Below, one piece after another: positions 19,165 to 50,113 of a DNA stretch of 64,000 nt. The stretch is from the NCBI GenBank assembly GCA_001603075.1, contig LVBB01000016.1, forward strand, positions 100,926-164,925. Reading direction: 5' to 3'. The DNA comes from Phycisphaerales bacterium Planc_01. Its GTDB lineage: Bacteria > Planctomycetota > Phycisphaerae > Sedimentisphaerales > Anaerobacaceae. The position numbers and the translations under genes were made by a program. The notes under the pieces are model-generated. The model searched no databases. It had not been told where the DNA came from and was given only the letters and a program-made list of their open reading frames with translations. How positions within the stretch are numbered: position 1 is the first letter of the stretch; every line of letters starts with the position of its first letter.

Positions 19165-19401
19165 AAAAATGGCGAGGTGGTGGTTCCGGCTGGGGGGGAG
19201 ACCGGTGGACCACGCTGCCTCGCCGAGGTTTATTAGCTGTAGGACAAAGCTCAATTCTCGAAATCAAAGAGCAACTGCAATGCGCCCAACCGATCTGTCA
19301 AATGCCTTCCGCAAAAACCAAGCGTATACCAGGGTGATTCAGCCACCCCATTTCACTCCATTGATAAAGAGAATTATACCTCGTTTAACAGCCGACTGCA
19401 A
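19165..19401 (-). ncRNA. Candidate small RNA unit: -10 TATAAT, about 200 nt, terminator-like hairpin
   Basis: Minus strand TTGCAG (19401-19396)-17 bp-TATAAT (19378-19373); hairpin GGCGAGG...CCTCGCC (19224-19171) with inner pairs, followed on minus by ATTTTTAT; no convincing ORF. Confidence 0.3.
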
Positions 19402-20620: not shown

Positions 20621-20777
20621 ATCCGGCATGAGCCCAAAGCCCATCCTGCGGCTCGGGATCCGAAAAAAGCCGGAAATCCCCAAAGTGGCCCCCGCATTGA
20701 GACGACAGTAGGGTAGCGAACACAACCCGCACGGACGGGGTGTTGCGCTTTTCGCTGCAAGACAAAAGGCGACCGCT

Positions 20778-33730: not shown

Positions 33731-34038
33731 ACGGCAATAATTCGAGGTCTGGGCCCTATGCTCAGAGGGGCTTCCTATCGTATACTATAGTTGGAAAAGT
33801 ACCGTATCGGCAGTGAATGGCGCCTCTGGCCGCTACCGGTCAGGTCCGGCAGGTCGGCTCAGAGGGTCGTTTGCTGAACGGGGGAAGGGGTAGCTGCCCC
33901 ATTTGCCGCCGGAGCGTCGACGTCGGCCATGCCAGATGGCCCACATCCTTCGCCGAGCACGGACTTTCCAGTAGAGGTTCCAATCCGGGCGGTTCCGGTG
34001 TTCACCGGCAAGCTTGAGGATTTGAAAGGAGCGGTGTG

Positions 34039-35844
34039 ATGAAGAAGGCATTGACGGTATCGTTGGCGATCTGTTCCATGCTCTTGGCCGGATGCGGGAG
34101 CTCGGACAGCGGACAGGACGGCCAGGCCAAGCCTGCCGTGGCCCGGTCCGGCCGCAGCTACTTCTGGGACAAAGACCTTCGGCCCACCGTAGCCGTTCCC
34201 GCCAGACGAGCGGCCCGGATGGACGAAATGACCGAGACCGTTGACGCACAAGCAGCGGCCCAGGAACAAGTATCGTCCGGACTCTACATCGAAGCGGCCC
34301 CTGCACCGCAAACGCCGACAAAGGCCGAAGCCGAACTGGTCACTGCCACGGTAGAAGAACTCAAGCCCGTCGCGACGCAACGTCCTTCAACCGCGTCGGC
34401 TCCCAGCGAGCGATTCATGGTCAGCAACGACCTCGTGGCCGTCGATGAAGGCGGCGCGCACGCCCTTTCCATGGTCTACCCAAGGCCGGACTACGGCATC
34501 ATTCAGGTCGACAAGACCATGCCGCAGGAAGTGCGACTGAACAAACCCTTTGCCTACGTCATCAAGGTCACAAACCTCACGAACATGATGCTGACCGACG
34601 TGGCCATCACCGAGACGCTCTCCAAGGAATTCGAGTTCAAAGGGTCCGAGCCCGCCGCCCGCAGCGAAAACAACAAGCTCATCTGGGAGATCGATTCGCT
34701 CGGCCCCAGGGCCAACAAGAGCATTCGCATCTCCGGCGTCGCCAGCGGATCGAGCCCTCTGGAACACTGCACCGCCATCACCCACACGATTCGCGACTGC
34801 GCCATGGTCAAGGTGGTCGAGCCGACACTGGAGGTCGGACGCATCGCCCCAAGCCAGGCCGTCCTGTGCGAACCGATTCCGATCGACTACATCGTGACCA
34901 ACACCGGTACGGGCGCCGCCCAGAACGTTCAGATCGTCGATACGCTGCCGGTCGGTCTGCAGACCGCCGACGGCAAGGGCAAGGTGGTTCTCGACGCCGG
35001 AACGCTCCTGGCAGGCGAGTCACGACGATTCTCCGTCAAGTTGCGGGCGACCAAGACGGGCGCCTACGCCAGCAAGGCGGTCGCGACAAGCGCATCGGGC
35101 CTGATGGCCGAATCGGAATCGACGCTGACCAGCGTCCGCCAGCCGATCCTGAGCATCACCAAGTCCGGGCCGCAGCGGCAGTTCCTCGGCCGCGCCGTGA
35201 CCTATGAGATCACGGTCCTGAACAAGGGCGACGGGCCTGCCCGGGACACTGTCGTCGAAGATCTGATTCCGCCGGGAGTGACCTCCGTCGAGGCGACCGC
35301 CGGTGCACAGTCGGCCGGCTCCAAACTGGTGTGGGAACTCGGCACGCTCGAACCCAACGCCGCCAAGACGGTTCGCGTCTCCTATACGCCCACCCGTGAA
35401 GGCGACCTGATGGCCACCGCGACCGCGACCGCCCACTGTACCGAGACAGTCACCGACTCGGCCCGAACGTCCGTCGCCGGAATCCCCGCCTCGCGTCTGC
35501 AGGTTATCGACCTGGAGGACCCGATCGAGGTCTCCAGCACCACCACGTATCTGATCACGGTGGTCAACGAGGGTTCGGCCGCCGACACGAACATTCGCAT
35601 CATCTGCACGCTGGACGACAAGGTACAGTACGTCTCCTCGGCCGGCGCGACCGCCGGATCGATCATGGGCAAGACGGTCAGCTTCGCCCCGTTGCGAAGT
35701 CTGGAACCCAAAGCCAAGGCGACATGGCGCGTCGTCGTGCGGGGCGTGCGGGCCGGCGACCTGCGGTTCAAGGTCAGCATGCACACCGACCACCTCGCCC
35801 TGCCGATCGAGCACACGGAGGCCACGCACATCTACCAGCAGTAG
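34039..35844 (+). CDS. Lipoprotein with DUF11-type repeats
   Basis: MKKALTVSLAICSMLLAGCGSS lipobox; repeated 'YEITVLNKGDGPARDTVVEDLIPPGVTSV' units. Confidence 0.87.
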   Translation: MKKALTVSLAICSMLLAGCGSSDSGQDGQAKPAVARSGRSYFWDKDLRPTVAVPARRAARMDEMTETVDAQAAAQEQVSSGLYIEAAPAPQTPTKAEAELVTATVEELKPVATQRPSTASAPSERFMVSNDLVAVDEGGAHALSMVYPRPDYGIIQVDKTMPQEVRLNKPFAYVIKVTNLTNMMLTDVAITETLSKEFEFKGSEPAARSENNKLIWEIDSLGPRANKSIRISGVASGSSPLEHCTAITHTIRDCAMVKVVEPTLEVGRIAPSQAVLCEPIPIDYIVTNTGTGAAQNVQIVDTLPVGLQTADGKGKVVLDAGTLLAGESRRFSVKLRATKTGAYASKAVATSASGLMAESESTLTSVRQPILSITKSGPQRQFLGRAVTYEITVLNKGDGPARDTVVEDLIPPGVTSVEATAGAQSAGSKLVWELGTLEPNAAKTVRVSYTPTREGDLMATATATAHCTETVTDSARTSVAGIPASRLQVIDLEDPIEVSSTTTYLITVVNEGSAADTNIRIICTLDDKVQYVSSAGATAGSIMGKTVSFAPLRSLEPKAKATWRVVVRGVRAGDLRFKVSMHTDHLALPIEHTEATHIYQQ

Positions 35845-35874
35845 ACCGGGCAGGACGCCACATTCAGACGCTTG

Positions 35875-35910
35875 ACGCCGCGGGACCGTTGGTCTCGCGG
35901 CGTTTCTTTT
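35875..35910 (+). terminator. Intrinsic terminator after DUF11 lipoprotein
   Basis: ACGCCGCGGGACC-gtt-GGTCTCGCGGCGT followed by TTCTTTT. Confidence 0.8.
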
Positions 35911-35978
35911 GACCCTGCGGAGGTCTCTCCTGCGGCCCCGAACCACTGCCCCGTCCTTCCAGGAACCCCGGAATTGTA

Positions 35979-36006
35979 TTGCGTGGGGCGGACAAACCGC
36001 TATACT
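35979..36006 (+). promoter_or_regulatory. Candidate accBC promoter (TTGCGT-16-TATACT)
   Basis: TTGCGT 35979-35984, TATACT 36001-36006. Confidence 0.45.
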
Positions 36007-36030
36007 GACGCGAAATTCAATGTGCTGTTC

Positions 36031-36074
36031 AGGTCCCCGTCAGGGGACTTTTTGTAGGGGCCTTCCAGGGGACC
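36031..36074 (+). promoter_or_regulatory. Attenuator-like leader upstream of accB
   Basis: AGGTCCCC-GTCA-GGGGACTT-TTT terminator-like hairpin (36031-36053); GGTCCCC can alternatively pair with GGGGACC at 36068-36074. Confidence 0.45.
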
Positions 36075-36102
36075 ACTGCCGGTTTCCAGAGAGGACGCAG
36101 TC

Positions 36103-36570
36103 ATGGCCGACAAAGACGCCGATGTGCAGAAGATAAAAGACCTGATCGCGATAATGAAAGAGAACGATCTCGTAAAGATCGATATCAAGCACGGCGACGA
36201 TCGGATCTCGTTGCGACGGGCCGGACCACCCCGGGCCGCAGCGATGGCCGGGCCGATCCTCGCGTCCCTGCCCGGGGCCCCGCTCGGCATCGGCGACGCG
36301 CAACCAGGGTCCGCACCGGTCCGCGACGACCTGCTCGAAATCAAGTCGCCTATCGTTGGGACCTTTTATGAGGCGCCGAGCCCGGACTCCGATCCTTATG
36401 TCGAGATCGGCGCTCATGTCAATGCACAGTCGGTCGTCTGCATCATCGAAGCGATGAAGGTCATGAACGAGATCAAGGCCGAGATCAGTGGCACAATCGT
36501 CGAGAAACGCGTTGCCAACGGCCAGGCCGTGGAGTATGGACAGGTGCTTTTCAAGGTCAAGCCGGAATGA
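36103..36570 (+). CDS. accB: Biotin carboxyl carrier protein of acetyl-CoA carboxylase
   Basis: C-terminal biotinyl motif [22 protein letters not shown]. Confidence 0.93.
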
Positions 36571-36644: not shown

Positions 36645-37982
36645 ATGCTATCACGAATCCTGATCGCCAACCGAGGTGAGATCGCGCTTCGCGTCATTCG
36701 AGCGTGCCACGAGATGGGCATTGAGACCGTCGCCGTCTACTCGGAGGCCGACCGAAACGCCTCGTACGTGCGGCTCGCAACCGAATCGGTCTGCATCGGA
36801 CCGCCCGACTGCAATCAGAGCTATCTCAACATTCCGCGCATCATCAGCGCCGCCGAAGTGACAAACGTCGATGCCATCCATCCCGGATACGGGTTCCTGG
36901 CCGAAAACGCCAACTTCGCCGAGATCTGCAAGGATTGCGGTATCACCTTCATCGGGCCGCCGGTCGAAGCGATGCGACAGTTGGGCGACAAGGTCGAAGC
37001 CCGCAAGCTGGCGCGCCGGGCCAAGGTCCCGGTCGTTCCCGGCTCCGACGGCGTGATCGAGAACGAGAAAGAGGCGCTGCGTCTGGCCAACGAGATCGGC
37101 TATCCGGTCATCATCAAGGCCGTCGCCGGCGGTGGCGGTCGCGGAATGCGCGTCGTGCACAACGACATCAGCCTTCACGCGGCCCTGGCATCGGCGCGAT
37201 CCGAGGCCGAAGTGGCCTTCGGCGAGGGCAGCGTCTACATGGAGAAGTTCATCGTCGAACCGCGACACGTCGAGGTCCAGGTCATGGCCGACCAGGAAGG
37301 CAACGTCGTGCACTTCTTCGAACGCGACTGTTCGATCCAGCGGCGGCACCAGAAGATGATCGAAGAATCGCCCTGCCCGGTGCTGGAGGAGCGGGACCGC
37401 GAGCGGCTGGCCGAGGCGGCGATCCGCCTGATCAAGGAAGCCCACTACGTCAACGCCGCCACCGTCGAGTTCCTCCTGGACAAGGAGGGGAACTTCTACT
37501 TCATCGAGGTCAATACCCGCATCCAGGTCGAGCACCCGGTCACGGAGATGATCACGGGCCAGGACCTCATCAAATGGCAGCTCCGCATCGCCGGCGGCGA
37601 GCCGATGACGCTGCGTCAGAAGGACATCCGGCACCAGGGCGTGGCCATCGAATGCCGCATCAACGCCGAAGACCCGGCCAACAACTTCTCCCCGTGTCCG
37701 GGAACGATCGCCAGGTACATCGCTCCTGGCGGCCCGGGCGTCCGAATCGACACGCACGTACACCAGGGCTGGACGATCAGCCCGAACTACGATTCGCTCA
37801 TCGCCAAGATCATCGTCCACCAGGAGACCCGGGCCGAGGCCATCGCAACGATGCGCCGCGCCTTGCAGGAATTCGTCATCGAGCCCATCAAGACCACGAT
37901 TCCCGCCTGCCTCGAAATCCTCTCGCACAACCTGTTCGTCAAAGGCAGGATCGACACAGGGTTTGTCGAGCGCAGCCTCTGA
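36645..37982 (+). CDS. accC: Biotin carboxylase subunit of acetyl-CoA carboxylase
   Basis: [67 protein letters not shown]. Confidence 0.96.
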
Positions 37983-49509: not shown

Positions 49510-50113
49510 GAGTGGCAGTTGCTTGTCACCAGTACCCTTTAGGCGTCTGTCGAACCGTGAATGTGGATGCCATTTTCTCAGAAGGCGCATTTTTTTTGCC
49601 GGCGACGTCGACGCCGACGGGGACCTCCGAAATCAGTACATCGGTCAGAGTAAGAGAACTGCGGCATCTGGCGAAGCACTCGGACAACCGAAGCGGGTGA
49701 CTTTGCGCAGCTTGTGACGACCAGCAAACCAGCCTGGAACAGCCCAACGTCTCTGCATCTTGCTCGTCGGAAAGAGACTCGTCACGACGTGCGAAATCCG
49801 CTCAAGAAAATGCTGCCGTCTGACCGATGGTGGATGATGTACAAGTTCAAAACGGTGGCTCGAAGCTGAAGACCAGCAAGGTCCTCTTAGCCCAAACCGG
49901 CGTCGCCAGTTCGATCTTGCACGTATGCCAGGTCCGGCACTGGACGACGCGCGGGGACGCTAGGAACAAAAGGAGAGAGCCACGAATAATTCAGTCGGGC
50001 CCCTGTGTTAGCAGCAGGCGGGTATTACGTGCGACTTGATAAAAGCACGGGCAAATACCTTCGCATCCTCCTGCCACAGGGGCCTTCTTCTTGCACCTTT
50101 CGGGTCGACTCAG

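Follow-up and report, generated by a model that had tools for sequence, protein, structure and literature searches.

The window (the whole stretch of 64,000 nt that was analysed) comes from a 5.65-Mb genome of 162 contigs, whose closest named relatives are metagenome-assembled genomes of the Sedimentisphaerales/Phycisphaerae (Planctomycetota). It carries accB and accC, both identified by matches to curated models, and the leader between their promoter and the accB start codon contains two small hairpins, which we call P1 and P2 (Table 1).

Table 1. Features of the accBC locus, in window coordinates
Feature	Position	Strand	Remarks
DUF11-repeat gene, 5' of the accB leader	34036-35844		TIGR01451
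Terminator of the DUF11-repeat gene, distinct from the accBC leader	35874-35904	+	14-bp stem; d-score +51.5
accBC promoter, GGAATTGTA	35970-36006	+	-35 TTGCGT (35979-35984), 16-nt spacer, -10 TATACT (36001-36006); consensus in relatives
Hairpin P1, GUCCCC-GUCA-GGGGAC	36033-36048	+	G-U and A-U extension to 36031-36050; -14 kcal/mol
U-tract UUUUU, directly 3' of P1	36049-36053	+	at least 4 U in 6/6 g1 and g25 leaders; absent from the 9 g32 leaders
33-nt invariant block, TCCCCGTCAGGGGACTTTTTGTAGGGGCCTTCC (hairpin, T5, GTAGGGGCCTTCC)	36034-36066	+	identical in G000, G001, G002 and G005; one copy per genome
Hairpin P2, GGGGACC (36068-36074) with GGTTTCC (36081-36087)	36068-36087	+	7 bp; just 5' of the ribosome-binding site
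Ribosome-binding site, AGAGAGGA	36088-36095	+	7 nt 5' of the accB ATG; RGAAAGGA kept before accB in relatives
accB (biotin carboxyl carrier protein)	36103-36570	+	TIGR00531 above cut-off, E 7.9e-39; ATG at 36103
accC (biotin carboxylase)	36645-37982	+	TIGR00514 above cut-off, E 1.5e-205

The promoter follows a consensus, AAATTGTTTGCAA-N16-TATACT, that is common to the regions upstream of accB in 76 genomes from the family or order of the window, taking for each the best promoter match within 260 nt; the 16-nt spacer is present in 67 of these. An exact search of 89 family genomes with the strict form of the pattern gave 13 matches, 11 of them accB promoters. Because the promoter is so widely shared, transcription is expected to start at about 36013, and the accBC leader to be transcribed. 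Leader length differs widely between genera. A conserved AAATTGT also occurs across the family just 5' of the -35 region and overlapping it (35970-35984 in the window), and may be a regulator site in addition to the promoter.

P1 is unusually stable for its composition (none of 200 shuffles is as stable; z -3.6). The whole 121-nt leader is no stabler than its shuffles (z +0.4), and the unusual stability is therefore confined to this local hairpin. A UCCCC/GGGGA stem is kept in all six leaders from the genus of the window (g1) and a sister genus (g25); the stem is of 5-7 bp plus extensions, with a 4-nt loop, and is followed directly by U5 or U4, which is the stem and U-tract arrangement of an intrinsic terminator. 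At the outermost pair, two of the six have G-C, one (G029) has C-G and three have an A-C mismatch, which cuts the stem of these three to 5 bp and leaves their terminator score barely positive. The d'Aubenton-Carafa scores (d-scores; our own implementation of the formula) are +38.5, +38.5, +5.2, +5.2, +5.7 and +27.3, that of the window being +38.5. Scores above zero are found in all six of these leaders, in none of nine from a second sister genus (g32) and in one of 60 other accB leaders. A simple terminator scan did not call P1, apparently as the stem was extended into the T-run. Terminator-like hairpins were also sought in the accB leaders of other genera, where they are few and not clearly above shuffles. 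Several elements that had been proposed from the letters of the window are thus borne out: the putative promoter with its -10 TATACT proves to be conserved family-wide, the terminator-like hairpin AGGTCCCC-GTCA-GGGGACTTTTT (36031-36053) was given with correct sequence and coordinates and is conserved across g1 and g25, and the upstream gene does have its own terminator, so that it does not need the leader hairpin.

Conservation extends beyond the stem to the 33-nt block. At fourfold-degenerate sites, counted in accB alone, all four species agree at 23 of 56 (41%), whereas the block is invariant. A 29-mer from the locus, TCCCCGTCAGGGGACTTTTTGTAGGGGCC, occurs exactly once per genome in the four congeners, always 5' of accB, and allowing up to 3 mismatches revealed no further copy elsewhere in the 89 family genomes. 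Similarly, each of the six g1 and g25 genomes has exactly one strong match to a covariance model, which lies at accB; the weak matches to the model have E values of about 0.001 or more, and three of these are g32 accB leaders. Further genomic copies of the element were accordingly rejected. This conservation, together with the single accB-only copy in the congeners, shows that the hairpin is not a chance structure. When the syntenic windows of three species are compared, the block is among a handful of apparently intergenic invariant runs of that length.

The other long runs include a tRNA and a 74-nt intergenic stretch at 19165-19238, which does not differ between three species of the genus, forms a strong hairpin (z -2.9) and has no Rfam match at E values up to 5; we regard it as a candidate unknown RNA. 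Apparently intergenic runs are also found at 20712-20749 (38 nt), which folds as a hairpin (z -2.0), and at 49851-49892 (42 nt). The accB leaders of G008, G057 and G028 (L009, L021 and L027) share a recurring type of intergenic motif, CATTTTGCGGCTTATTGCAGGG / TTTTGCGACGTATTGCAAAATGGG, which looks like an interspersed repeat of those genera.

The nine g32 genomes have a homologous short hairpin, with some compensating changes of the closing pair and no U-tract; that of G036 is very weak. In the AccB/AccC tree, g25 branches outside g1 and g32 (bootstrap 85; g25 is represented by AccB alone), which makes a loss in g32 the simpler history, and the terminator form is thus probably ancestral. That g32 keeps the hairpin without its U-tract indicates that P1 is of some use beyond termination. 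In three g32 leaders (L116, L122 and L120, from G120, G122 and G126, respectively), P1 is nested in a longer hairpin, GAGGU..CCUG / CAGG..ACUUC, and more widely in g32 a CAUCC/GGAUG hairpin overlaps the ribosome-binding site or lies directly beside it.

The sequence-only reading had proposed an RNA switch, in which the 5' arm of P1 would pair either with the 3' arm of that hairpin or with GGGGACC (36068-36074), giving mutually exclusive folds. The second pairing does exist in the window, with 7 of 7 pairs, but it is not conserved: the three congeners keep 5, 6 and 5 of the pairs and the two further relatives 3 each, with C-A mismatches in the middle of the helix, and there is no covariation above shuffles. 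The position of GGGGACC is also unfavourable, since it lies 15 nt past the T-run and is transcribed after the termination decision; the polymerase passes the U-tract before the segment exists, so GGGGACC cannot act as an antiterminator. Instead, it covaries with GGTTTCC (36081-36087), its partner in P2. A lack of conservation of the two pairings had been named as a refutation of the proposal; the P1 pairing is conserved and the second one is not, and we find the switch hardly credible.

All 7 pairs of P2 are intact in four species (GGGGACC/GGTTTCC, GGAAATC/GATTTCC, GGGAATC/GGTTTCC and GGAAATC/GGTTTCC), with C-G, U-A or U-G at one pair and G-U or A-U at two, including a double change from C-G to U-A. 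P2 is broken in G003 (3/7) and G029 (5/7). These pair counts come from few sequences and a modest shuffle control (2-5% of shuffles do as well as the real leaders on most measures), but P2 is clearly better supported than the switch pairing. Another alternative pairing, CCCC (36035-36038) with GGGG (36057-36060), is present in the four congeners and, by eye, as UCCCUG/CAGGGA in about half of g32; it is absent in G003 and G029 and was rejected. Upstream of P1, the leader of approximately 18 nt contains no conserved complement to P1, and up to the P1 5' arm the six leaders fold weakly and differently from one another. Thus, we found in the accBC leader no antiterminator made before the terminator, as a competing-fold attenuator would have.

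The promoter, P1, the U-tract and P2 are observed, as are the conservation of these elements and the breakdown of the alternative fold in relatives; we infer that transcription terminates in the cell, only partly and subject to modulation. In our preferred reading, to which we give a probability of roughly one half, the leader would be a promoter-proximal intrinsic terminator with factor-modulated read-through, lying approximately 20-40 nt past the transcription start and accompanied by a second small hairpin beside the ribosome-binding site. Polymerase starting from about 36013 would reach P1 and the U-tract almost immediately; a fraction would stop there and release an RNA of approximately 40 nt, while the remainder would read through into accBC. 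Output would then be set by the read-through fraction or by a factor holding on to the invariant block in the RNA. The family-wide promoter, the occurrence of P1 with at least 4 U in all six leaders and the change of the outer pair from G-C to C-G in G029 support a terminator; the invariant loop and downstream GTAGGGGCCTTCC speak against it, as they exceed what a terminator needs, and so do the shortened stems with barely positive scores in three of the six leaders and the hairpin without U-tract in g32. Of the earlier proposal of a regulatory leader before accBC, the dedicated promoter and conserved terminator-like hairpin therefore survive, and the mutually exclusive fold does not. A more specific version, in which a dedicated regulator (a carboxylase protein or a metabolite) recognises the invariant block and so gates read-through, we consider unlikely; if true, the first step of fatty-acid synthesis would be under a novel type of cis-RNA control.

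The same excess of conservation can be read post-transcriptionally, with P1 and the block binding a protein or small RNA or protecting the 5' end, P2 setting access to the ribosome-binding site, and the U-run being a binding sequence that does not terminate. The invariance of the loop, U-run and GTAGGGGCCTTCC beyond terminator requirements fits this, as does the covarying P2 at the ribosome-binding site, but the U-tract stands exactly at the terminator position in all six leaders, even in another genus where the adjacent bases have changed, and no Rfam family matches. We retain this reading as a tentative alternative, mainly because the hairpin, which persists in g32 without the U-tract, is broader in use than a terminator.

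The remaining readings fare less well. P1 might instead work as DNA, with a dimeric repressor binding the inverted repeat TCCCC-N4-GGGGA (approximately +22 to +35) as its operator, since the dyad is near-perfect, lies just 3' of the promoter and is kept in six sequences. Against this, the dyad occurs 8 times in the genome (3 times for the backward control), and none of the other copies shows an obvious U-tract; furthermore, g32 shows half-site changes of the G-U type and varied spacing, and the conserved block is asymmetric. On the genome-wide copies, an operator or regulon was rejected, and we consider it very unlikely. More doubtful still is ribosome-coupled attenuation, in which translation of an 11-codon leader ORF (GTG or ATG, ..LSRSPSGDFL*), running across P1 to a stop just past the U-tract, would open the hairpin. 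In four species the start (GTG, GTG, GTG and ATG) and the stop are in matching positions, but the ORF lacks a ribosome-binding site and, in G003, an in-frame start codon; the substitutions that G003 and G029 carry in P1 change the encoded amino acids, and there is no run of a single amino acid to provide control codons as in classical attenuators. The leader thus contains no conserved, translated ORF of the leader-peptide type.

An Rfam scan of the window gave only a tRNA above the gathering score, with no match for the accBC leader, and at E values up to 5 the leader gave nothing relevant (one chance match on the other strand); it belongs to no known riboswitch or other Rfam family. In the literature searched, we found no description of leader-RNA control or attenuation of acetyl-CoA carboxylase genes (accBC) and no paper on transcript mapping in Planctomycetota. 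To judge from its sequence, the element would work as a leader terminator; such terminators are common, but this one is not represented in Rfam. It would be ordinary if it did no more than terminate weakly and constitutively; as a conserved single-copy leader element, it is a small and exactly bounded target for asking whether premature termination throttles fatty-acid synthesis in these bacteria. Intrinsic (Rho-independent) terminators in 5' leaders have been mapped by Term-seq as attenuators or premature-termination sites, for example in E. coli (PMC7815308). Like these, the accBC leader has a hairpin and then a U-tract between promoter and start codon, so that expression would need read-through; unlike these, it has no competing antiterminator fold or known ligand, lies very near the transcription start and is predicted from sequence. 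With metabolite riboswitches (Rfam) it shares the setting, a structured leader of a biosynthetic operon, but it is smaller and simpler than known aptamers, occurs once per genome and has no Rfam match. In E. coli, accBC is autoregulated by AccB, and a disputed binding of carboxyltransferase to accA/accD mRNA has been described (PMC11602165). Those controls are protein-based, for accBC at transcription, and no leader terminator is described there (PMC11602165); what the accBC leader would have in common with them is a dedicated control of acetyl-CoA carboxylase gene expression.
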